From: Bacteroidota bacterium | GTDB lineage: Bacteria > Bacteroidota > Bacteroidia > Sphingobacteriales > Sphingobacteriaceae | Length of the DNA stretch: 49,044 nucleotides | Assembly: GCA_018266935.1 (NCBI GenBank) | Contig: JAFDZL010000493.1 | Span: 1-49,044, forward strand | Reading direction: 5' to 3' | Shown here: in pieces, positions 19,534 to 32,953 of the stretch | How positions within the stretch are numbered: the first letter of the stretch is position 1 | How the letters are laid out: every line of letters starts with the position of its first letter | Made by a program: the position numbers and the translations under genes | Notes under the pieces: generated by a model | What the model saw: the letters and a program-made list of their open reading frames with translations, nothing else | The model's database searches: none | Told to the model about the DNA's origin: nothing

Positions 19534-19845
19534 TTATCTTTCACCTGATTTACGAACAATATCAGGGACCGTAGTGACCAATGATCGAAATATCAGCGGC
19601 GCTGAAAGTCCGACGTGGAAATAAACGATTTTGTTGAGTTTTTGCGTATCGTCAAAATACACAAACCCGAGTATTGCGCTCAGGCTAAGATTAAATAAAA
19701 TAACCAAATAATACTCAACAGATCGAAAATCGGGTCGCCTGTCTGGCGGCGCTGAGAGAGCATCAATCAAATTCAAAAGTTGAAGGGCGACGCCACCGAG
19801 TAAACAAAGGTAAACAGATTGAGGAATTGCCATAAGTTTAATCAA
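19534..19845 (-). CDS. Small three-helix membrane protein ending the Argonaute operon
   Basis: A 103-aa protein with three likely membrane segments: about residues 9-29 (QSVYLCLLGGVALQLLNLID), 43-64 (VEYYLVILFNLSLSAILGFV) and 74-94 (VYFHVGLSAPLIFRSLVTTV). There is no signal-peptidase site and no known family. Its start overlaps the end of the 90-aa gene by 8 bases. It is the last gene of the operon and faces the ATPase stop with only 18 bases between them. Small membrane proteins at the end of defence operons often act as effectors or inhibitors, but here that is a guess. Confidence 0.7.
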   Translation of the reverse strand: MIKLMAIPQSVYLCLLGGVALQLLNLIDALSAPPDRRPDFRSVEYYLVILFNLSLSAILGFVYFDDTQKLNKIVYFHVGLSAPLIFRSLVTTVPDIVRKSGER

Positions 19846-20110
19846 TTCGATTTTTAAATGCCCCCAGAACTTTATCCATTAACGGAGCCTTGTGACGAAA
19901 AAGAGTCCGCGATGTGTACAATGGCTCGCCATGTTTCATTCTGTATGATGAGCGAACGAAATCTCCTGAAGTCATGATTATCTCTGCAACGGTTGTAGCA
20001 TCAATTTTTGTGGCTTTGGATATTTCCTCGAGAGTCTTCCAGTAGTCATCATCCTGCGAGTCAAAAAAGTTCAGGATCAAATTCTTATCACTTTCTAGTT
20101 TTGTTTCCAT
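19838..20110 (-). CDS. Small winged-helix-like protein of the Argonaute operon (90 aa)
   Basis: No family is recognised with certainty. The order of elements suggests a winged helix: helix 'DKNLILNFFDSQ', helix-turn-helix 'WKTLEEISKATKIDATTVAEII', then wing strands 'VRSSYRMKHGEPLYTSRTLF' and a C-terminal helix. The protein could bind DNA or another operon product. It lies 11 bases after the metallopeptidase gene and overlaps the membrane-protein gene by 8 bases, so the three are co-translated. Confidence 0.7.
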   Translation of the reverse strand: METKLESDKNLILNFFDSQDDDYWKTLEEISKATKIDATTVAEIIMTSGDFVRSSYRMKHGEPLYTSRTLFRHKAPLMDKVLGAFKNRID

Positions 20111-20121
20111 TTGGTTGACGT

Positions 20122-21255
20122 TTACAAGATTTGTTTAAAAGCAGCTACGGCTGTCCTTTCCCATTCGTAAAATTCAATCGGATTGGTCCAGAATTGTTGC
20201 CACGAATCGTTTAATAAGCGATTAACCTTATCACTTGGTGCTGATGTTGCTAGCTGACAGCCGATTTGCTTTAAGCCTGTAAAGCAAAATTCTGCTGCGC
20301 TTTTTAGCAAGGATTCCGGGTAAGCAATTGAATATTCTTCAGTTCGTTTTTGACCAATAATCTCAATAAATTCATCCCATTTGGCTTTAATATCCACCGC
20401 ATCTTCCTCAAAGCCAAGTTGTTCCAGGGCTAAAATACAGCACCGCATACGCGCATCCGCGGCCGGATGTGTTGACATTTCATAAGCTGGTGTTTTAAAT
20501 ACATCCCAGGCCATTTTCGTACACATATGCAAATTCGACCAAAGATAGGCAGGCCCCAATGTGTAGGTGGCAAACAAATCACAGAAAAACTCAACCGACC
20601 ATTTTTCCACCCAGGAGTCTTTATAGATGTAAATTGGATCGTAACCGCCTGAATCCAATTTATTCATCTCCCTTCTTTTGATTTCCTCTTCGAAATGTTT
20701 CCTGACAGCCAGGTTGAAATAACCAAGATTATTTTGAAAGGGTTCAACTTTTGGATTATCCCGTTCTATCAATGGATGACCAAGTTCGTGGTAAAGGTCC
20801 GGGATATGCAAGACAAATTCGGATTCTAGTAGCGGTATGCAAATCAATCCATAGTCGGGGTAAATATGATAGTAATTTTGAGAAAGACACGATGCAACCG
20901 GTGGCGGCAAAGGATAATTAACCTCGTTGCAAATTTCTTGTACTAACTTATTGACAAAGTCATCGTCGTCCGATTTTCTGTTCAAAGCGGCAATCACGAT
21001 ATTTTCAATCTTGGATAGAAAAAACGAAAGCTGCTTAAATCTCGTAAATTTTGACTTAAGGTTTTTAGGATCGCAATAGTCTGAATCAGCTAAAAGATTG
21101 TCAAGATCATCAATAATTCGCCCTATCTCATCGTTGGCAAAATTAGCTAACGACGCAAAATGTGTCCCCAAAGTCCTTGAGCCAGGAATTTTAGTCATTA
21201 AAGCCCTTCCCTTGCCTATTGCTTCCCTAATTGCGCCGTTGATGTAGTTGACCAT
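20122..21255 (-). CDS. Zinc metallopeptidase-like protein (HELGH) in the Argonaute operon
   Basis: A 377-aa protein with a zincin signature. HELGH is at residues 156-160, with glutamate/aspartate candidates for the third zinc ligand in EFFCD at 222-226 and the block 'STHPAADAR' at 261-269. The H-E-x-x-H ... E-x-x-x-D ... H-P-x-x-x-R order recalls M48-type gluzincins. The N-terminal 110 residues are helical. There is no signal peptide or membrane anchor, so it would act in the cytoplasm. Its start directly abuts the stop of the 121-aa gene. It could process a partner protein on activation, but the substrate is unknown and I do not know a named family for it. Confidence 0.75.
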   Translation of the reverse strand: MVNYINGAIREAIGKGRALMTKIPGSRTLGTHFASLANFANDEIGRIIDDLDNLLADSDYCDPKNLKSKFTRFKQLSFFLSKIENIVIAALNRKSDDDDFVNKLVQEICNEVNYPLPPPVASCLSQNYYHIYPDYGLICIPLLESEFVLHIPDLYHELGHPLIERDNPKVEPFQNNLGYFNLAVRKHFEEEIKRREMNKLDSGGYDPIYIYKDSWVEKWSVEFFCDLFATYTLGPAYLWSNLHMCTKMAWDVFKTPAYEMSTHPAADARMRCCILALEQLGFEEDAVDIKAKWDEFIEIIGQKRTEEYSIAYPESLLKSAAEFCFTGLKQIGCQLATSAPSDKVNRLLNDSWQQFWTNPIEFYEWERTAVAAFKQIL

Positions 21256-21621
21256 TTATTCGCCAATTATCTTTGATAATGCTTGACTATTTTCAGTATC
21301 CAGTATGTCAGCAAGGAACTCTATTTTTGGCAAATAGCCACCGACATTACCGCTTTCGATATCGTTTATGACCAACTGCAGATAATTTCCAAAATCTTTG
21401 GTAGTCGGACGAAGTTCTCGTTCCACAATATTTGATAATAACTGAAACTGTGGTTGTGCGTTATTCTCGTCTTTTAGCTTGGCTATGAATTCAATTAATT
21501 GTCCTTTTTGGCCGTCTTCGATGTCTTCATTTATTCTTACTCTGACAACAAAATCATTTAAAAGATCAAGGTATTTACCTGTGATCCTAAAGGTATTGGT
21601 ATTTAATCCGATGCTACTCAT
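21256..21621 (-). CDS. Hypothetical helical protein downstream of Argonaute (121 aa)
   Basis: I do not recognise a family. The protein appears alpha-helical and acidic, without Cys/His clusters, signal peptide or membrane segments ('NDFVVRVRINEDIEDGQKGQ', 'NYLQLVINDIESGNVGGYLP', 'IEFLADILDTENSQALSKII'). It sits 10 bases after the Argonaute stop and its own stop touches the start of the metallopeptidase gene. That tight packing implies co-expression. It may link Argonaute and the peptidase or be the peptidase's substrate or adaptor, which is inference only. Confidence 0.7.
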   Translation of the reverse strand: MSSIGLNTNTFRITGKYLDLLNDFVVRVRINEDIEDGQKGQLIEFIAKLKDENNAQPQFQLLSNIVERELRPTTKDFGNYLQLVINDIESGNVGGYLPKIEFLADILDTENSQALSKIIGE

Positions 21622-21631
21622 TTTATTGTCT

Positions 21632-24061
21632 TTAAAAGTTAACTGATTTTAAGATCTCCAATGATTCAAAGTCAAAATCACTTCCAAGGATATTTATTCG
21701 ACGATCTGTTATTCTGATTGTTATCGGAAACCTTGAACAATCATCAGGCTTGCTATATGGGAGGCAAGACAGGTAATATAAGTCCTTTAATATTTTTTCA
21801 AACTCCATATCACCAGTATTGTATTTTACATATAGCGGAATTGAAGTCCCTTGATGCTTAAATTCACGACCCGTCGTACACAAAAACGCTTCTCGTGAAT
21901 TAATCATTACATAAGAGCCAATCTCAGGATTCAACACTTTTCCATTATCGTTACGCACAGATCTCATATCAAAATTTTCAGTAACCTCAAAAAGCCGAAA
22001 CGGAATAACAGAGTGTTTGGGAATTTCTACAATATTTACCGAGCAAGTCATCGAAACAATCCCCTTCTCTTTCAAAGTATTTATCGCCTGCATGATGCCC
22101 TCTTTTTCTCTTTGAAAAAGGCGGCCATCGCGATGAATGACGACTGTTTCAATTGCATAGCCCAGGTGCCTCTTTAATAGAATGATGTTGGGGACGAGCA
22201 TCTTTACCATTTGAGCAACAGTAAGCCGTTCCTTGTTGCTTGACTTGTCGAGCCTTGTTAGAATGTTTTTTGAATACTTATCGACGAATGTGACGCCTGC
22301 AATTTGCTTTTTCACATCGATTCCAATTGTTAAATCGGCATTCAAAGGTGTATTTAGTACAAATGGCCAACGTTCATTATTTAATAGCACCTGGTTAATT
22401 GCGACTCCTAAAACATATCTACGATATTTCCCTTCACTCTCTCTTCTGAGTTGATATGTACCACTACCATTCATTGACCGATAGACAAAACACTCCTCTA
22501 ATGTCTCGGTGTGCATGATGCTTGCAGTCATATTGTGCTCACTTAAGCACTCAGACACCACCAAGGCAGCCAACTGGTCATGCTGACGTTTTATCCTTTC
22601 TACATTAGACGGTAACATGACAACTGCATAACCACCTTTTTTATCGTTAACCGTTTCCTTAATTTGTTTGAGAATCTCAAATCCTATATCTACGGAATCC
22701 TTTTTGTTTCTGTTATCATAAACGACAACTTGAGGGTCCCAACCAACTTCACTTGGATGCATTTTATTAACTTGTTCAACCAGATGTGACAAAAAGTGTT
22801 CTCGATTCCCATACATATGAAAAATTGTCTCAGGAACAACGAAATACTGTTTTTGAAAGGTTGCAACCGTGTAACAACCTTTATCCATCAATAATGCTTT
22901 TCGCGCTTTCCCCAGGTCTTTCATGGTTGTAAAGGTCGCATCTCCAAGATTGGGATTTACAGTCAATAAAGCATCTCCACCAAAAAGTGTATCGGGCACC
23001 TCAAATTTCTTTTTTTCAATGATTACTGGAGTGTCATCAAATTCAAGCTTGATATTTCCAAATCTTATATTCTTAAAGAAGCGGCTAAATGCTGAACGAA
23101 TAAATAGTCTCCTATAAAACGGATCCAAAATTGATTGTCTATGAATCTTACTTACTTTTCGATCTTCGGTATCAAAAACTTGGTAACAGAGGCCAGCTAT
23201 CGCGTGACGCTCCTCATTATCATTTGTCTTATAAGTTAAAGCCGAAGCATTATCAGGTAATTTTGCTACCTCTGGCGGCATAGCTCTTCCAAATTTCGAT
23301 CTAACATCCTCTAGTAGTGTTACAATCTTGTTATCTCCACGTCTTGGGAATTTAAGCTGTGTCGCATTGAGATCATTAAATCTTACCGACCGAAGCTCAT
23401 ACTTTTGATTTCCATAACGATAAATATAATGAGGTTTTGATCCTCCCAATTTTTCAAACTCTCTGCGTGTAACGTTGACATTAAGCGGTTCTTGAGAAAC
23501 ATATTTCTTAGTAACGTCAATCGAGACGCCCAGCCCGCCGTTTGGTATTTCTACAACACGTGCAAAGAAACCATTGTAGATACTTATCCCATTGACAACT
23601 TTATATGCCTCTTGATTGAAAAATGCGTCTCCAGATGTTGGTTGCCATAAAGTCGGTAGGTCATTTAAATTTGACTGTATATCAAATTGAAGAAATCGCA
23701 AAACGATTTCTTTAACTGAATGATACTTTGCAAAATCAATAGGAAAAGACTCATTTACTTGTTTGAAGTAAACGATTTCACTCCGTTTTACAAGGAATTC
23801 AGAAGGAATACTGGCAATCACTTGTTTTTCGTCTCTCACAACCAAAAACGGCTTATTTTGCCGATGAATTACGGTAACCGGATGCTTCAATTTGTATGAG
23901 AGCGTCTCAATAATAAATTGAATGTTGTTATCGTAGTCGTCATCTACATCGCGCAAACCGATTATTTCAAACAGCACATAGTTTGCTGACAACTGATGCA
24001 AATTTTTTATAGGAAAAACATCGGTCTCGTATTCTCCAATATTAGTTCGACATTGTTGCAT
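21632..24061 (-). CDS. ago: Prokaryotic Argonaute (long form, PIWI acidic residues present)
   Basis: An 809-aa Argonaute. The N-terminal half would hold the N, L1, PAZ and L2 parts, though PAZ is not clear by eye. The MID region is around 475-525. The PIWI domain spans about 570-809, with Asp582 in 'LTIGIDVKKQIAGVTFVDK', a possible glutamate finger at Glu611, Asp645 in 'VVIHRDGRLFQ' and Asp786 in 'FPITIRITDR'. That fits a DEDD catalytic tetrad, so target cleavage is predicted. The usual Y/K...Q guide 5'-phosphate motif in MID is not obvious. The length fits long pAgos; Sphingobacteriaceae Argonautes of this size have been studied. Its start overlaps the nuclease gene by 20 bases. Whether guides and targets are DNA or RNA cannot be told. 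Confidence 0.9.
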   Translation of the reverse strand: MQQCRTNIGEYETDVFPIKNLHQLSANYVLFEIIGLRDVDDDYDNNIQFIIETLSYKLKHPVTVIHRQNKPFLVVRDEKQVIASIPSEFLVKRSEIVYFKQVNESFPIDFAKYHSVKEIVLRFLQFDIQSNLNDLPTLWQPTSGDAFFNQEAYKVVNGISIYNGFFARVVEIPNGGLGVSIDVTKKYVSQEPLNVNVTRREFEKLGGSKPHYIYRYGNQKYELRSVRFNDLNATQLKFPRRGDNKIVTLLEDVRSKFGRAMPPEVAKLPDNASALTYKTNDNEERHAIAGLCYQVFDTEDRKVSKIHRQSILDPFYRRLFIRSAFSRFFKNIRFGNIKLEFDDTPVIIEKKKFEVPDTLFGGDALLTVNPNLGDATFTTMKDLGKARKALLMDKGCYTVATFQKQYFVVPETIFHMYGNREHFLSHLVEQVNKMHPSEVGWDPQVVVYDNRNKKDSVDIGFEILKQIKETVNDKKGGYAVVMLPSNVERIKRQHDQLAALVVSECLSEHNMTASIMHTETLEECFVYRSMNGSGTYQLRRESEGKYRRYVLGVAINQVLLNNERWPFVLNTPLNADLTIGIDVKKQIAGVTFVDKYSKNILTRLDKSSNKERLTVAQMVKMLVPNIILLKRHLGYAIETVVIHRDGRLFQREKEGIMQAINTLKEKGIVSMTCSVNIVEIPKHSVIPFRLFEVTENFDMRSVRNDNGKVLNPEIGSYVMINSREAFLCTTGREFKHQGTSIPLYVKYNTGDMEFEKILKDLYYLSCLPYSKPDDCSRFPITIRITDRRINILGSDFDFESLEILKSVNF

Positions 24062-25365: not shown

Positions 25366-25417
25366 TTGCTAAGTATTGCAAGCAAAGATATGGAACGTTG
25401 CTAAATTTTGCAAGCAA
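25366..25417 (-). promoter_or_regulatory. Promoter with two operator-like dyads for the Argonaute operon
   Basis: On the minus strand a Bacteroidota-type promoter is visible: TTG (25411-25413), a 20-base spacer, and TATCTTTG (25383-25390, consensus TAnnTTTG), 38 bases before the XRE start. Two copies of the dyad TTGCT-N10-AGCAA lie at 25366-25385 and 25398-25417, 32 bp apart start to start (about three helical turns). One copy overlaps the -7 box and the other the -33 box. Repressor binding there would block polymerase, so the XRE protein is the likely ligand. Confidence 0.7.
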
Positions 25418-25457: not shown

Positions 25458-27563
25458 CTATTTTCTTAAATGGACACTTAACGCGAGTAATTGGCCCATT
25501 GAAAGCCTGCTACCTAAGATCGGTCGTAAGCGCGCCACAGTCGGTTGATTATCAAAATCCGGTAATAGATTTAAAGTATCGTTCAGTAATTGTTGCGGTA
25601 TTATATCAGTTATCTTGACCTCTCCTGTAGGTATAAAAAATGCAAGGTGGGACTCAATTGCGGAAATTCCTAGTTTTCGTTTGTCCGCTATTTCTGCAAG
25701 GGAATTACCTGCTAAAAACAGCTTCAATGTCTGCTTTTCTGTTGTTTCATTTGTTTCGGCAACCTTGCCATAGGACTTGGCTTCGGAAGTAACTACAGGT
25801 ATAAGTGAATTTTCTCCTAAATTTGGGAAATAGGGGATTCCATTTTCAACTTTCGGAACTAGTTCGGTCGCCATCTTAATTGCCCGCTCCTTTTCCTGGA
25901 ACGATTGAACAATATTATTAACTAGGTTTACTTCCGATCTGAACTTATAGTCAGCTTTATTTCTTTTAATATAATCCTTTAAAGGCGATATGCAGTTTGA
26001 ATTAATCTCATTGGAAAAGTACTCAGCTGCCCTAAAGCACCGCTCTTTTAGCAAGAGCCAGTCTATATTGCCTGGAATATAAAGTAATCCCCGAATTTCT
26101 TTTGCAAATGCTGAAGCATGTTTTTCTAGCTTAAGTGACGTTTCTTTTATACTTGCAAAATTCGATCTATCGAGCGTCGGTTGCTCAAGCTTCACTTTTA
26201 TCGAGCTCCAGTCGAAAATTTTATTTAGCAAATTCATTAGGTATTCTTTTTTCCCCTCCACCAATGTCAATAACAATTCCGGGATATTTCCAACTTTGCT
26301 AAAAACAGTTTCGGTGATTTTGGGCCTAATTATAGCTGAAGCGGGTATTTTAGACTTCAGGAACAAGCCCTCCGGTGTCTTAATTCGACTCAATGCAACA
26401 TAAACCTGGCCAGGAGCAAACGCCCCCGCAACATCTATTACTGCCGTCTCAAAAGTCAAACCCTGACTCTTGTGAACGGTTATTGACCACGCCAATTTTA
26501 ATGGAAATTGTTGGAAAGTTCCTAAAACCTCTTCTTTGACAGTATTGGTTTCAGAGCTGAATGTATAAGTAATATTCGACCAAATTTCTTTTTGAATTGT
26601 AGTTTTTGATGTGTCGTCAAAAGTGACTTCGATTGTTTCTTCGTTGAACGCTGTGATTGTACCAATTTTCCCATTATAGTATTGTGGATTCACCGATTTG
26701 TCGTTTTTTAGAACCATCACGCGACAACCTTGCTTTAATTGAAGATTCAATTCAACCGGGAATTGCTCTTCAGAAAATACACCATTTAGCACGGCATTAA
26801 AGATATGCCCCTCCCCAGGCAAGCCGCGCAATTGACTCACATTTATTTGAGCGGCATTTTGATTGTGAGTTGTTAGTATAATGGAATTTTTATCTGCCCA
26901 TTCAGGTGTATAAAATGTATTAAGTTGCGACAATTCGAAATCTGAAATATTTCCTGTCCTTACTGCATTGAGCAAGCTGATAAAATCTGCATCTGATTGC
27001 CGATGTACCTTAGTTAGTTCTAGCATTAGTACGTCTAGGTCGCCAATTATCCTTGAAGAAGTGAAATAAAGTGTCGGATAAAGTCCACTCAATGTTTCCC
27101 TGTCTTCGGTGGTTTCAATAGGTGGCAACTGAAAAAGGTCGCCGATAAATACAATTTGTAAACCTCCCAATGGCCGTCGATTCTGACGCACTTCTTTTAG
27201 CAAATAGTCCATTGCGTCTAATACATCTGCCCGTAACATGGAGACTTCGTCGACAACTAGCAAATCTAGTTCACGCAAAAGCAAACGAGCTTGACTTGAA
27301 ATTCGAATGCCTTTAACCGTCTCTTCATCAAGCGGTCGCGGAGGCAGTGCAAACAAAGAGTGGATTGTGGTTCCACCAACATTTACTGCAGCTACACCAG
27401 TCGGCGCAGCAATTGCCATTTTTTTCTGGGTACAGCCTTTCAAGAATTTCAAAAATGTGCTTTTGCCAGTACCCGCTCCGCCGGTTAAAAACACGTTCCG
27501 CGCAGTATGATTTATGAAATCCAGTGCCATCGAGGCAATGTCGCTAACGCTATCATTGTTCAT
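25458..27563 (-). CDS. Pif1/RecD-like helicase with helix-turn-helix C-terminus
   Basis: A helicase of about 701 aa. Walker A is 'FLTGGAGTGKSTFLKF', followed by 'IAAPTGVAAVNVGGTTIHSLF', Walker B 'LDLLVVDEVSMLRADVL', and the late motifs 'LAWSITVHKSQGLTFETAVID' and 'GQVYVALSRIKTPEGLFLKS', all typical of superfamily 1B Pif1-type enzymes. The C-terminal 80 residues include an HTH-like part (LFLAGNSLAEIADKRKLGIS). I prefer the start MNNDSVSDIA at 27563, because family members begin just before the P-loop; an ATG at 27605 adds 14 residues. It lies 112 bases upstream of the XRE gene on the same strand. It may be part of the Argonaute system or a separate gene. Confidence 0.8.
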   Translation of the reverse strand: MNNDSVSDIASMALDFINHTARNVFLTGGAGTGKSTFLKFLKGCTQKKMAIAAPTGVAAVNVGGTTIHSLFALPPRPLDEETVKGIRISSQARLLLRELDLLVVDEVSMLRADVLDAMDYLLKEVRQNRRPLGGLQIVFIGDLFQLPPIETTEDRETLSGLYPTLYFTSSRIIGDLDVLMLELTKVHRQSDADFISLLNAVRTGNISDFELSQLNTFYTPEWADKNSIILTTHNQNAAQINVSQLRGLPGEGHIFNAVLNGVFSEEQFPVELNLQLKQGCRVMVLKNDKSVNPQYYNGKIGTITAFNEETIEVTFDDTSKTTIQKEIWSNITYTFSSETNTVKEEVLGTFQQFPLKLAWSITVHKSQGLTFETAVIDVAGAFAPGQVYVALSRIKTPEGLFLKSKIPASAIIRPKITETVFSKVGNIPELLLTLVEGKKEYLMNLLNKIFDWSSIKVKLEQPTLDRSNFASIKETSLKLEKHASAFAKEIRGLLYIPGNIDWLLLKERCFRAAEYFSNEINSNCISPLKDYIKRNKADYKFRSEVNLVNNIVQSFQEKERAIKMATELVPKVENGIPYFPNLGENSLIPVVTSEAKSYGKVAETNETTEKQTLKLFLAGNSLAEIADKRKLGISAIESHLAFFIPTGEVKITDIIPQQLLNDTLNLLPDFDNQPTVARLRPILGSRLSMGQLLALSVHLRK

Positions 27564-27992
27564 CTTTTGCAAATATAATTTGTCGGGACTATTAATAATT
27601 TTCATAGTAGGGGCGAATTAAAAAAAGCGAGGAAATTTTTAAGAAAATAAATTGAGCACAACAGATCACAACGCATAATGCGTTAAAATTTAAGAAAGGC
27701 CCCAAAACATTGATTCTATTAGATTTAAGCTCGAATTTCGAATTTCGATTTTCAAAATGCGTCATGACCTTTATGGGCAAAATTGACCAAATCGAAATTC
27801 ACAGACTATTGATCCTACTATTACTGACCTACTTAAATCTTTGGGAATTTGAGAACACATAACTGATGTGGTCGAAGGTGGGCGAAGAAACCTTTAAAAA
27901 CCGCGAAAAAAAATATGGGTTCACTAAGTAATAGGAACTCTCAAGAATTGTGAATTTTTAATAAGGTTAAGAGCTTGAATATCCTCCAAAAT

Positions 27993-28176: not shown

Positions 28177-28956
28177 TTAATATGTCCATAAGCAGGACAC
28201 CAGTGCATGCCGTCCTACCTGGTAACATTGCTCCCAAAGTTTCCAGTCCGACTTATATTTAATCTGAAAATCTTCGGGAAACCATTCAATAGCGTCAACT
28301 TTCTCCGGTTGAGCTTCGAGTGTGCCTTTCGCAAAATAGTCACCCGCTACCGTCCAAGCTGGAACTTTTGAATTGAGCGGCAGATAGGTGAACGGGAAGT
28401 CGTAGGAGTGGAATTTCCACTTCACCATATTATCTTCCATAAAAATGATCATTGCAGGAAAATCCCCTATCGATACATACTTGATAAATGTAGCCAATAA
28501 AGAGGTATGAAAGTACCCGCTTACATCTTCGATCAGTTTAATGCTTAATTTCTTTCCAGCAACCATTCCTTTAAATAGCGATTCCGGCATCAGCAGCTCG
28601 GACGCGAAGCTGTTGGCCTGCTGTTCTTGAGCACCTTTCTTATACCATTCTGCAAGTGTGAGGTCGGTATCGGAGAACAAAGCCGATGTATCCTTATGGA
28701 GCAGGAAGTGCCCGATCTCATGCCCTAATACAAAATTTCTTTTCCCGAGCTGCGTGATCGTATCGCTTACGGAAACAATGGCCGAGTCCCCTTTGATCAA
28801 AATTCTTCCCTCAGACCCTTCTATGGGCACTTGTTTGACCAGTATTCCTAACGCCCCGGCGATTTCGTCCAGGGTAAGATCTGAAGGCTGGGTCCATCCC
28901 AAAAAGGAATGTACCTCCCGTGCGGCGTTTACCGGGTTCCTACTTTGAATCCTCAT
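28177..28956 (-). CDS. ImmA/IrrE-family metallopeptidase
   Basis: A 259-aa protein with the ImmA/IrrE (COG2856) zinc site: HEIGH at residues 79-83 in 'RNFVLGHEIGHFLLH', and Glu111 in 'EQQANSFASELLMP' as third ligand. The C-terminal 120 residues are an additional domain. Such peptidases cleave helix-turn-helix repressors in response to a signal. CapP, a member that controls CBASS operons, is a known example. Here it is encoded divergently from a CBASS operon, and its start overlaps the 134-aa gene by 17 bases. The expected partner repressor is not a standard XRE protein; the sigma-like protein at 29346 is the candidate. Confidence 0.85.
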   Translation of the reverse strand: MRIQSRNPVNAAREVHSFLGWTQPSDLTLDEIAGALGILVKQVPIEGSEGRILIKGDSAIVSVSDTITQLGKRNFVLGHEIGHFLLHKDTSALFSDTDLTLAEWYKKGAQEQQANSFASELLMPESLFKGMVAGKKLSIKLIEDVSGYFHTSLLATFIKYVSIGDFPAMIIFMEDNMVKWKFHSYDFPFTYLPLNSKVPAWTVAGDYFAKGTLEAQPEKVDAIEWFPEDFQIKYKSDWKLWEQCYQVGRHALVSCLWTY

Positions 28957-29345: not shown

Positions 29346-29942
29346 TTACCTGAATGATGATTGTTGTTGATTTTTAATTCGTCTCATTAATTTTTCCCGC
29401 AGCTTGTCGAACTGCCTCACATTGATACCCAATAAATCGGCGATACCAGCTCTTTTTTTGCCGTCCTTCAATCCCTCGATCATAAACTCCAGGTCTTCAT
29501 CGCCTGCGACGGCGGTTTCAATCACAGCCAGCTTCCGCTCTATCTCTTCACGCTCCCGCTCGTCTGTCGGCGGGGCAGCAAGGTCGTAAAACTCTTCTTC
29601 CACATCTTTATATACGATTTTCAGCGCTTCGCTCTTGGCAGAGGTTGTCTGTTCCACCTGCTTACTGATATAGCTGTCGGCGATTCTGATCATCTGCTGG
29701 CTCAGCGTAAAATCATCTTTCCACTCCCATATGCCCGCCAGTATTTTTTCATAGGCAATACCAAGATAATGATCAACCGGTTCGGCCCCAAGATTGGAGG
29801 CTGAATGCGCGCCGGACAAGGTACGCTGCTTCAGTCGCCACTTAATATGTTCCTTGCATTTTGCCATGGCCACCTTCCAGTCTGCATCTGTCAGTCTTTC
29901 AACCTTGCGCTGGTTTGCGTGATAGTACTTACCTGTTTCCAT
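29346..29942 (-). CDS. Sigma-70-like / helix-turn-helix regulator
   Basis: A 198-aa protein with the layout of a small sigma-like factor. The N-terminal helical region resembles region 2 ('DHYLGIAYEKILAGIWEWKD', 'QQMIRIADSYISKQVEQ'). A charged linker follows, and the C-terminal helix-turn-helix is 'RAGIADLLGINVRQFDKLRE' with a basic end. It could direct RNA polymerase or act as a repressor. It starts the three-gene operon divergent from CBASS, and its ATG is 10 bases from the palindrome at 29953-29979, where it may bind. The assignment rests on secondary-structure pattern, not on clear sigma signature motifs. Confidence 0.6.
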   Translation of the reverse strand: METGKYYHANQRKVERLTDADWKVAMAKCKEHIKWRLKQRTLSGAHSASNLGAEPVDHYLGIAYEKILAGIWEWKDDFTLSQQMIRIADSYISKQVEQTTSAKSEALKIVYKDVEEEFYDLAAPPTDEREREEIERKLAVIETAVAGDEDLEFMIEGLKDGKKRAGIADLLGINVRQFDKLREKLMRRIKNQQQSSFR

Positions 29943-30067: not shown

Positions 30068-30340
30068 ATGGCTATAATAATTACCTACGACATTCTATCG
30101 AAACATGTGGAATTCAAAAAAGAAATGTTTCAGTTGGGCTACAAGGACCAGATTCCGGGAGAGAACTGCAAAATCATCTATTTCCCAAACACCACTTTAT
30201 ACCACGCAACCAGAGAAGCAGAAACTGCAAGAGATGAGGCTAAAATTGTTTGCAAGAAGCTCAACATTCAATTAGAACGCTGCGTTGCGACGATATGGAA
30301 GGATTGGGCTGCCGTTTGCGGTGAACCATTTAAGCAATAA
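30068..30340 (+). CDS. Small ferredoxin-fold-like protein opening the CBASS operon (90 aa)
   Basis: The predicted order is strand (MAIIITYDIL), helix (HVEFKKEMFQLGY), strand (CKIIYFPNTTLYH), helix (REAETARDEAKIVCKKL) and strand (LERCVATIWKDW). This resembles the beta-alpha-beta-beta-alpha-beta fold of Cas2/VapD-type small proteins, including an early aspartate (Asp8) at the end of strand 1 as in Cas2. It is one base upstream of the phospholipase gene, so it is clearly part of the operon. It could be a nuclease, an inhibitor of the effector or an inert subunit. No CBASS role for such a protein is known to me. Confidence 0.7.
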   Translation: MAIIITYDILSKHVEFKKEMFQLGYKDQIPGENCKIIYFPNTTLYHATREAETARDEAKIVCKKLNIQLERCVATIWKDWAAVCGEPFKQ

Positions 30341-30341
30341 G

Positions 30342-31364
30342 ATGGCTGAAGTAAATAAAAAATTCAGGATACTTTCCATCGATGGAGGCGGCATACGCGG
30401 GTTGATACCCGCAAAGGTACTCATGGAACTGGAACGGGAGCTCGACAAAATCGAATCTGGCAAAAGGCTCCATGAGCATTTTGATCTGATCTGCGGCACC
30501 TCAACCGGCGCCATCCTCGCTATCGCAATTGCCCTAGGTGTACCGGCATCCGAATTGGTGGAGTTTTATAAGGAAAACGCCAGGGTGATTTTTCCAAAAT
30601 GGTATTTTAAAGTAGTGCCCAGCAAGGCGCGCGCATTCATCACTTCAATTTACAGTAATAAGGCTTTGCACAAAAAGCTGGAAGAGGTGTATACAAAAGC
30701 AAATGGCGGTACAAAGCCACTTCTAAATGACCTGAAGACCAACGTTTGCATCCCTGCTTTCAATGGAAACGACGGCCAGATAAACGTAATGAAGACCCGT
30801 CACCACGAGGATTACATGCGCGACTATAAACTCCCCGCACATGAAGTAGCGCTTTCCAGCGCATCGGCACCGATTTATTTCCCGCCGCATTCATTCAGTT
30901 TTGCAAATGAGTTCGGCAGCGGCAAAAATGTGAATATGATCGATGGAGGCATCTTTGCCAACAATCCTTCCCTCATCGGCATACTGGAAGCGACCGAGAA
31001 ATTCGGTCACGCATTTTCTGATATCAGTTTATTGTCATTAGGCACCGGTAAAGGCAAGCACGTCATAAAAACTGGCTGGAAGCCCAAAGATATTTGGTAC
31101 TGGCTGTTTCCAAAACCGCGGCTGCTCGATATCATCCTTGACAGTCAGGCGCAGATCACTGAGCAGTACATCAATTTTATCAGGCGGCTTTGCGATAAAA
31201 ATGATGATGCCTTGGATTACCTGCGTGTCCAGTATGATATGGGCGGCTCGACCATAGACCTTAACGCATCCGCGAAAAAGGACATTGATAGGTTGGAAGC
31301 CATAGGCGACGAACTGGCGAAAAACAATATAGTTAACATAATTAAATTTTTAACATCAAAATAA
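30342..31364 (+). CDS. capV: Patatin-like phospholipase, CBASS effector
   Basis: A 340-aa lipid hydrolase. The oxyanion-hole motif DGGGIRG is at residues 14-20, the nucleophile Ser54 is in GTSTG, and the catalytic-dyad Asp201 is in the DGG of 'MIDGGIFANNP'. In CBASS, patatin effectors (CapV type) are switched on by a cyclic nucleotide and degrade membrane phospholipids, killing the infected cell. The start MAEVNKKF at 30342 follows the previous stop by one base. The next gene, the nucleotidyltransferase, starts two bases after this stop. The gene symbol reflects function and context, not a sequence search. Confidence 0.9.
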   Translation: MAEVNKKFRILSIDGGGIRGLIPAKVLMELERELDKIESGKRLHEHFDLICGTSTGAILAIAIALGVPASELVEFYKENARVIFPKWYFKVVPSKARAFITSIYSNKALHKKLEEVYTKANGGTKPLLNDLKTNVCIPAFNGNDGQINVMKTRHHEDYMRDYKLPAHEVALSSASAPIYFPPHSFSFANEFGSGKNVNMIDGGIFANNPSLIGILEATEKFGHAFSDISLLSLGTGKGKHVIKTGWKPKDIWYWLFPKPRLLDIILDSQAQITEQYINFIRRLCDKNDDALDYLRVQYDMGGSTIDLNASAKKDIDRLEAIGDELAKNNIVNIIKFLTSK

Positions 31365-31365
31365 T

Positions 31366-32316
31366 ATGGCAAACTGTCACGACCTTTTCCTGGGGTATCA
31401 GGAGGACATCTGTATCGGCAAATCAAAAAAAGACAGGATGGTAGCCTCAAAAGAGGCTTTGAGAAAACGCATCCGCAAATGGTTCAAGGATAATCATTCT
31501 GATTACGAACCAAAATTCTTTATTCAGGGCTCGCATAAAATGAAGTCTGGCATTCGTACCAAAGAAGATATTTGCGACCTGGATGACGGCATCTATTTCT
31601 TCCGGGAGCCGGATGTCACCGCGACCACTTTGCAGAGTTGGGTATGGGATGCTGTAAATGGTTATACGGCTACAACGCCGGAACATCGCAAAAAATGCAT
31701 TCGCTCCATCTTTGCGGGAGATTACGAGGTAGATCATCCGGTCTATTACAAAATCGACGGGCAAGACTATCGTATCGCTGTAAAAGACAATGGGTTTGAA
31801 GATAGCGATCCGAAAGCGATGGTCGAATGGTTCAATGGGAAAAAAGATAAGGATGGCAAGTTGATACTGCACGTCATGTACTTAAAGGGCTGGTGTGATG
31901 AGCGCCGTCACAAAATGCCTAGTGGCTTGGCAATGACGATCCTTGCAGCAAACGCCAAAGACAGAATTGTTTTGAACGACCGGGATGATATTACCTTGCG
32001 CGACATATTGAAGGAAATAAAGAAGGAGCTGGACCGCGACTTCAAATGCATCGTGCCGGCTGTGCCCAAAGACGACCTATTCGCTGGCTATGATGAGACC
32101 CGCAAAAATAATTTCCTCGGCGCTTTGAAGGAATTTATCGATGATGCTGATGCGGCGTTACGGGAGGAGAACCAGCTGACGGCCAGTAAGCTCTGGAAAA
32201 AACATTTGGGGAGCCGGTTCCCAGAGGGCAAAGACGAGAAACAGCAGAACAATAGCCGTGTCGCTGCAGCGGTAGCTGCGGGTGCGGTAAGATCAAATCC
32301 TTGGGCTAATGAATAA
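31366..32316 (+). CDS. CD-NTase (cGAS/DncV-like nucleotidyltransferase) of CBASS
   Basis: A 316-aa cyclic-oligonucleotide synthase. The nucleotidyltransferase signature is visible: 'FFIQGSHKMKSG' (Gly55-Ser56), then 'ICDLDDGIYFF' with the metal-binding Asp71 and Asp73, and Asp123 in 'DYEVDHPVY' as the third acid. On phage infection it should make a cyclic di- or trinucleotide that activates the patatin. The C-terminus is a long Ala-rich, unstructured tail ending NPWANE, as in CD-NTases whose C-terminus is handled by a ubiquitin-like machinery. The stop overlaps the next start (ATGAATAA). The clade and product cannot be set by eye. Confidence 0.85.
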   Translation: MANCHDLFLGYQEDICIGKSKKDRMVASKEALRKRIRKWFKDNHSDYEPKFFIQGSHKMKSGIRTKEDICDLDDGIYFFREPDVTATTLQSWVWDAVNGYTATTPEHRKKCIRSIFAGDYEVDHPVYYKIDGQDYRIAVKDNGFEDSDPKAMVEWFNGKKDKDGKLILHVMYLKGWCDERRHKMPSGLAMTILAANAKDRIVLNDRDDITLRDILKEIKKELDRDFKCIVPAVPKDDLFAGYDETRKNNFLGALKEFIDDADAALREENQLTASKLWKKHLGSRFPEGKDEKQQNNSRVAAAVAAGAVRSNPWANE

Positions 32317-32953
32317 TTTAGCCGTATTCAGGCAGGAAGCTGCAATTTGGTGCGCACAAAACCCGGGCTTTGTGTGCAGCGATAATCAGCAAGGGGTGCC
32401 TGAATTGACGGGAAAGCTGCAATTGTCGGATGGTCAGGGTGAGTGGGTAGACACTTATGAGGTCAGAATCGTTTGCACGCCCGACTATCCGTTAAGTTTC
32501 CCGTTGGTATATGAAACAGGTGGCAGAATACCCATGAACATCGAATGGCATGTTTACCCGGACGGACACGCCTGTATTTGCGCTATTCCGGAGGAAATGA
32601 TTGTTTGCAGTAGAGGTATAACCATGCAAACTTTTATTAATGATTGGATGAGCCCCTACTTTTTTAATCAAAAACATCGGGAAATGCATGGTTTCTTTTT
32701 GAAAGAACGTCCACATGGCCCTGCCGGAAACATCCAATTCTTCCACGAGATATTTAAAACGGATGACCTTCGGTATATCGCTGAGATGCTATTTTATATA
32801 CGTTCAAAACAGGAACCCAACCGTGTTCAGAACTGTTTTTGTGGAAGCGGTGAAAAATATCGGCGATGTCATCGCGACGCCTTCCGTTTGTTCAGGGCAC
32901 TACCCGTAGATAAACTAGATCAATGTATCCGGTTCGTGCAATCCTGGGTATAA
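32309..32953 (+). CDS. E2-like protein with C-terminal SEC-C zinc motif (CBASS type II-short)
   Basis: A 214-aa protein. Residues 1-135 look like a UBC/E2 fold with the block 'YPDGHACICAIPEE', where Cys89 or Cys91 is the likely thioester cysteine. The C-terminal part carries a full SEC-C motif, CFCGSGEKYRRCH (Cys176, Cys178, Cys187, His188), a zinc-binding module. Minimal type II CBASS systems carry an E2 alone, without E1 or JAB genes, and use it to modify or prime the CD-NTase. This operon has that shape. It overlaps the CD-NTase gene by 8 bases. The SEC-C tail could recruit nucleic acid or partner proteins. Confidence 0.75.
   Translation: MNNLAVFRQEAAIWCAQNPGFVCSDNQQGVPELTGKLQLSDGQGEWVDTYEVRIVCTPDYPLSFPLVYETGGRIPMNIEWHVYPDGHACICAIPEEMIVCSRGITMQTFINDWMSPYFFNQKHREMHGFFLKERPHGPAGNIQFFHEIFKTDDLRYIAEMLFYIRSKQEPNRVQNCFCGSGEKYRRCHRDAFRLFRALPVDKLDQCIRFVQSWV

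Follow-up and report, generated by a model that had tools for sequence, protein, structure and literature searches.

According to the accessible part of PMC9360449, RslAgo of Runella slithyformis and PliAgo carry out DNA-guided cleavage of RNA, and genes of the PliAgo group are associated in operons with a nuclease gene and a helix-turn-helix gene; the helix-turn-helix gene in operons of this Argonaute group is thus already known. The same is true of CapH and CapP beside Bub operons: in the accessible part of PMC13373217 they are described as a repressor and an ssDNA-activated peptidase found next to CBASS and Bub operons, and CapP is said to cut CapH on binding single-stranded DNA. A study of XRE palindromes distinguishes 223 motif clusters, and TGCT-N10-AGCA may be among them, as far as its accessible part shows (PMC12565409). 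Regarding the control of operons for DNA-guided, RNA-cleaving Argonautes, our search returned no literature beyond the presence of a helix-turn-helix gene or a sigma factor; no operator of an Argonaute operon was found in the literature covered, the main texts of freely accessible papers. Here an Argonaute operon is considered from a Bacteroidota bacterium, within the window (the whole stretch of 49,044 nucleotides that was analysed); the operator, the way it interlocks with the promoter, its occurrence in two systems, and a predicted metallopeptidase as the constant fifth gene are taken as new.

The Argonaute operon and the promoter of its XRE gene

The operon (Table 1) runs in the order XRE regulator, Cas4-like nuclease, Argonaute, 121-aa protein and 377-aa HExxH protein, followed by a 90-aa protein. 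The Argonaute matches the solved structure 7r8k, which we take to be PliAgo, at 8.8e-107 over residues 12-798, and is 43.9% identical to RslAgo of Runella, whose gene WP_013921749.1 is contained in locus L017, from R. slithyformis DSM 19594, of the survey below; both its sequence and its operon, with a Cas4-like nuclease and a helix-turn-helix gene beside a relative of PliAgo and RslAgo, place it in the PliAgo group. The best near-full-length matches to the XRE of the window in 100 related genomes are only 42-43% identical, and the XRE family is also found on plasmids in other hosts; together these suggest an accessory operon that is probably moving horizontally.

Table 1. Features of the Argonaute operon, its promoter and the neighbouring CBASS locus, with positions in the window
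Feature	Positions	Strand	Remarks
90-aa protein, no assigned family	19838-20110	-	downstream in six related loci too (L024-L028, L033)
HExxH protein, 377 aa, predicted gluzincin-type metallopeptidase	20122-21255	-	conserved fifth gene; candidate inducer
Small protein, 121 aa, no known family	21256-21621	-	conserved fourth gene
Argonaute, 809 aa, PliAgo/RslAgo group	21632-24061	-	PADLOC pAgo_II; best solved relative 7r8k
Cas4-like PD-(D/E)XK nuclease, 320 aa	24042-25004	-	
XRE (CapH-like) regulator, 111 aa	25010-25345	-	first gene of operon; Pfam HTH_3 6.4e-13; PADLOC capH 1e-10
Operator 2 (putative)	25366-25385	-	TTGCT-N10-AGCAA dyad TTGCTAAGTATTGCAAGCAA; core 25367-25384 = TGCTTGCAATACTTAGCA (minus strand)
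-7 box TATCTTTG (predicted)	25383-25390	-	final two bases are the first two of operator 2; geometry in 27/28 clade loci
Operator 1 (putative)	25398-25417	-	TTGCT-N10-AGCAA dyad TTGCTAAATTTTGCAAGCAA; core 25399-25416 = TGCTTGCAAAATTTAGCA (minus strand); over -33 box
-33 box TTG (predicted)	25411-25413	-	from the TGCTTG half-site of operator 1; read from the sequence and from geometry in 27/28 clade loci
CapP	28177-28956	-	full-length match, 1.4e-58
Weak capH-like protein, 134 aa	28940-29344	-	0.0018
CBASS locus: patatin-type phospholipase, DncV-like cyclase, E2 protein	30285-32953	+	divergent from the CapP and capH-like genes

Ahead of the XRE gene, the preliminary description had placed two TTGCT-N10-AGCAA dyads at 32-bp spacing, overlapping a TTG-N20-TATCTTTG promoter; both dyads are present and exact, 32 bp apart from start to start, and the overlap was borne out, with operator 1 on the -33 box and operator 2 starting inside the -7 box and extending across the likely transcript start. 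The promoter of the XRE gene reads TTG - 20 bp - TATCTTTG on the minus strand, a form that we take to be the Bacteroidota -33/-7 promoter; promoter match and operator are not wholly independent, since they have letters in common (the TTG of TGCTTG and the TG of TGCT). The dyads form two 21-nt direct copies that are 90% alike, and the 21-mer with up to three mismatches occurs twice in the window where 0.05 occurrences are expected. The bare dyad with up to two mismatches is found 26 times in the window against 31.6 expected, so that nothing beyond the two exact copies is remarkable and rarity in the window alone proves little. Across the 4.8-Mb draft genome the bare dyad occurs in nine places and the refined operator TGCTWR-N6-YWAGCA in three, two of them in each case lying at the XRE promoter, and a control pattern occurs in five; the scarcity of refined sites points to a local regulator. 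Conservation centres on a TGCT-N10-AGCA core whose interior is asymmetric, roughly TGCTTG-M-N-AWA-Y-TT-AGCA.

A PIF1-like helicase gene (25458-27605, minus strand) lies 112 bp upstream of the XRE gene and in the same direction. No terminator was found between this gene and the Argonaute operon, so read-through is possible and could bypass the switch.

Distribution and geometry of the probable operator among XRE relatives

The survey set combined the window and six plasmid loci with 80 XRE relatives, the best of 347 in the genome collection; it yielded 88 upstream regions, as locus L053 has two such XREs and counts twice. The preliminary description had staked its reading on the dyads recurring before homologous operons, and they do recur: an exact TGCT-N10-AGCA precedes 73 of the 88 XRE genes, and all 88 have a site with at most one mismatch. 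By type, exact sites are found for 46 of 47 Argonaute-type XREs and for 27 of the 41 others. A motif-blind scan of all 4-letter dyads with gaps of 0-16 (4,352 dyads), run on the 73 regions left after removal of 15 near-copies, ranks the same dyad first, in 59/73 regions against a mean of 0.68 and a maximum of 3 in shuffles; the second-ranked dyad (26/73) is a displaced version of the first. One Rhizobium operon is represented twice, as L018 and L059; L059 was left out of the scan and the trees and kept for the 88-region counts. The sites are concentrated at the XRE genes: within the same 80 loci, exact matches number 102 in 20,250 bases upstream of these genes versus 25 in 1,101,722 bases elsewhere, and none was found in 148 windows upstream of later genes: Argonaute (0/40), the small protein (0/30), the HExxH protein (0/43) and ImmA/IrrE (0/35). 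XRE relatives in viral contigs, mostly more distant and used as a control, have an exact site in 3 of 44 loci; no close relative of the Argonaute was found in viral contigs.

The XRE of the window aligns through residues 5-107 to positions 8-99 of the 103 of the PADLOC capH profile; all 31 aligned XRE sequences match this profile, which is broad and also has matches in all 14 control genomes. All 31 rows of the alignment have the same SNAYLSQ stretch in the helix-turn-helix, and the nearest relatives of the window XRE are from Bacteroidota. Judged by sequence comparison, it is this XRE subfamily that the dyad follows and not the Argonaute. The dyad is absent (0/5) before Argonaute operons with a sigma-like first gene (four) or a different XRE (one, L152), and before a cyanobacterial Argonaute operon in which no such XRE was found; it is present before Bub-type loci, whose part in common with the Argonaute loci is a related XRE. 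These Bub-type loci hold multiubiquitin, ThiF and often DUF6527 genes, then an ImmA/IrrE gene. In the XRE tree, 46 Argonaute-type rows are separated from 40 Bub-type rows and one contig-end row by a branch with support of 95/98, drawn from few columns for many rows; as the operator is common to both sides, it is probably older than the split between the two types. It is kept from Bacteroidota to Chloroflexota and Pseudomonadota.

In four loci (L017, L053, L065, L082) the Argonaute operon stands beside ThiF-type genes, with multiubiquitin as well in L017 and L065. In L017 and L065 no good site could be found ahead of the ubiquitin-like genes, and the surroundings of the ThiF gene in L082 gave none either; in L053 a single imperfect site precedes the CapP-type XRE. 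Use of the operator by both systems of a single cell was rejected.

The four operons with a sigma-like first gene (L148-L151) are likely to represent the PnyAgo group of PMC9360449, judging by that gene and by the accessible part of the report. They share the nuclease, Argonaute, small-protein and HExxH genes with the operon of the window; where that operon has the XRE, they have a sigma-70-type protein and a 185-202-aa protein, and no dyads precede them. The Sigma70_r4-type first gene was confirmed with Pfam in the three loci scanned and assigned by resemblance in L150; the 185-202-aa protein before the nuclease gave no Pfam match in the three scanned. A sigma/anti-sigma switch before the same Argonaute core is possible in these loci.

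The window belongs to an XRE clade of 28 rows (tree support 99/91) in which paired sites lie exactly 32 bp apart in all 28 loci, with one mismatch in one of the two sites in L024, L026 and L041. The interlocked promoter recurs in 27 of the 28, with TTG at site 1 +3, TAnnTTTG at site 2 -6 and a spacer of 20 bp; the exception, L025, has TCG in place of TTG. Given this fixed geometry, the promoter boxes are partly built from operator half-sites. Among the remaining 60 regions a looser promoter form is found in four, and the 20-bp spacer in none; many sites outside the clade read TGCTTGACA, which contains a TTGACA hexamer. There the sites are single or paired, at a spacing of 19-20 bp in seven Argonaute-type loci and 28-30 bp in 26 other loci, and, given this variation, regulation as such does not call for a pair 32 bp apart.

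Probable autorepression and candidate routes to induction

The conserved dyads lie over promoter elements of the XRE's own gene; the homologue counts and the fixed geometry of the clade make autoregulation by the XRE well supported. Comparison gave the sites, their conservation, their tie to the XRE subfamily and their placement on the promoter, and from these we infer binding, repression, cooperativity and relief. The dyads are very probably operators of the XRE encoded by the first gene, which would act as an autorepressor shutting its own promoter. An XRE dimer on each dyad would cover the -33 box and the -7 box with the start point, and bound XRE would keep RNA polymerase off the promoter; the operon of XRE, Cas4-like nuclease, Argonaute, small protein and HExxH protein would thereby be held down, the XRE itself included (negative autoregulation). 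As 32 bp is roughly three helical turns of B-DNA, the two dimers would lie on the same face, an arrangement suggestive of cooperative binding; repression would be expected to lift once the XRE is lost or cleaved. The preliminary description predicted an operon that stays silent until needed; its induction at need is likely, and the best candidate for an inducer is the predicted metallopeptidase encoded by its fifth gene, though that gene is present without this XRE too.

It may tentatively be proposed, in addition to autorepression, that this metallopeptidase is activated on infection, cuts the XRE and opens the promoter. Residues H156, E157, H160 and E222 of the HExxH protein are invariant in 31/31 rows, and in the structural model (pLDDT 94 for the whole protein, 92 for the domain) the HExxH motif is predicted on a helix of residues 153-164 and the glutamate on a helix of residues 208-233, the arrangement of gluzincins. 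Helical bundles dominated the structural matches of the whole model, and the catalytic domain was therefore modelled separately; its best neighbours are all Zn metallopeptidases, namely BepA (Z 8.3, 4.1 Å, 131 residues aligned), ZMPSTE24 (Z 8.3, 7.3 Å, 151), Ste24p (Z 8.2, 7.2 Å, 164), abylysin (Z 6.7, 3.0 Å, 95) and BlaR1 (Z 6.2, 6.1 Å, 135), the top scores of 8.2-8.3 being middling by the tool's own scale. Foldseek returned no match with E < 0.001 for the whole or domain model, and no Pfam peptidase match was found among 34 members of the fifth-gene family. M78/ImmA-IrrE, to which the protein may all the same be related, is absent from the structural neighbours listed, as is CapP. The proposal also draws on loci in which the XRE, small protein and HExxH genes stand together with the operator and without Argonaute: L062 (7956-9869), L091 (7947-10202), where the nuclease is reduced to a 109-aa fragment, and the similar L093; L043 has the same three genes and is cut by the contig end. 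Against it, the HExxH gene is present in Argonaute operons without this XRE (the four sigma-like operons, L152 and the cyanobacterial L019), all six genomes with a strong Argonaute match in one class carry it too, and profile comparison with the ImmA/IrrE of Bub loci gives a probability of 3%, which is not significant. Being present regardless of the XRE, the HExxH gene belongs to the core of the Argonaute system, and the protein may have another substrate. If the proposal were proven, it would provide a second repressor-protease pair beside CapH-CapP.

Negative autoregulation alone also fits every sequence result: the XRE would keep its own amount constant, with continuous low expression of the operon and no induction, and the proposed inducer is a candidate. 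This simpler reading is considered rather unlikely, as both promoter boxes are covered and CapH with CapP is described, in the accessible part of the source, as a DNA-damage switch (PMC13373217). A broader version of the peptidase proposal, which we regard as unlikely, would make the system a self-contained fuse: a gluzincin-type peptidase from the same operon would cut the promoter-interlocked XRE or, in the sigma-factor group, the anti-sigma protein. One conserved protease would then arm two unrelated switches before the same Argonaute core.

Cleavage of the Argonaute XRE in trans, by the CapP of the CBASS locus nearby, is distinctly improbable. That full-length match is the sole capP match found in the genome, of which the Argonaute XRE is the best capH match, and the Bub-type relatives of the XRE are followed by capP in 22 of 22 loci scanned; however, this CapP adjoins a weak capH-like gene of its own, and a capP match is missing in four of the nine genomes with the Argonaute operon that were searched. 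By the same count, CapP in trans was rejected as a general inducer. The idea that the dyads serve another, unlinked regulator is scarcely credible: XRE binding to them is predicted from sequence, but the sites track the XRE subfamily through different phyla and both kinds of operon, and none of the Argonaute operons examined that lack such an XRE has them.

A 198-aa protein (29346-29942, minus strand) adjoins the CapP genes; its C-terminal end resembles sigma region 4 by eye, and it gave no Pfam or PADLOC match.

Comparison with known systems

A precise operator for the putative autorepressor indicates which DNA to footprint, offers a way of expressing the system under native control and points to a stimulus to try; it also sets one repressor lineage before two unrelated defence systems that each have a metallopeptidase of their own. 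The PliAgo group of PMC9360449 has the same operon type as the window; the accessible part of that report gives no operator, promoter or peptidase and leaves the fourth and fifth genes unnamed, unlike the description given here.

CapH is an XRE repressor at the promoter of a defence operon, as the XRE of the window is the first gene of an Argonaute operon, and it is the Bub-type sister clade of the window XRE that is followed by CapP. In contrast, no CapP adjoins the Argonaute XRE, and the fifth gene encodes a different kind of metallopeptidase; PADLOC found no capP match inside the Argonaute operon, the nearest (Table 1) adjoining another gene, and the XRE is therefore filed as CapH-like rather than as part of a CapH-CapP pair. 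DdrO, which is among the solved relatives of the window XRE, is likewise an XRE-type repressor relieved by a metallopeptidase, IrrE/PprI, in Deinococcus; as described in the accessible part of PMC10904395, that system pairs an IrrE-type peptidase with a regulon, whereas the XRE of the window is predicted to govern one local operon.
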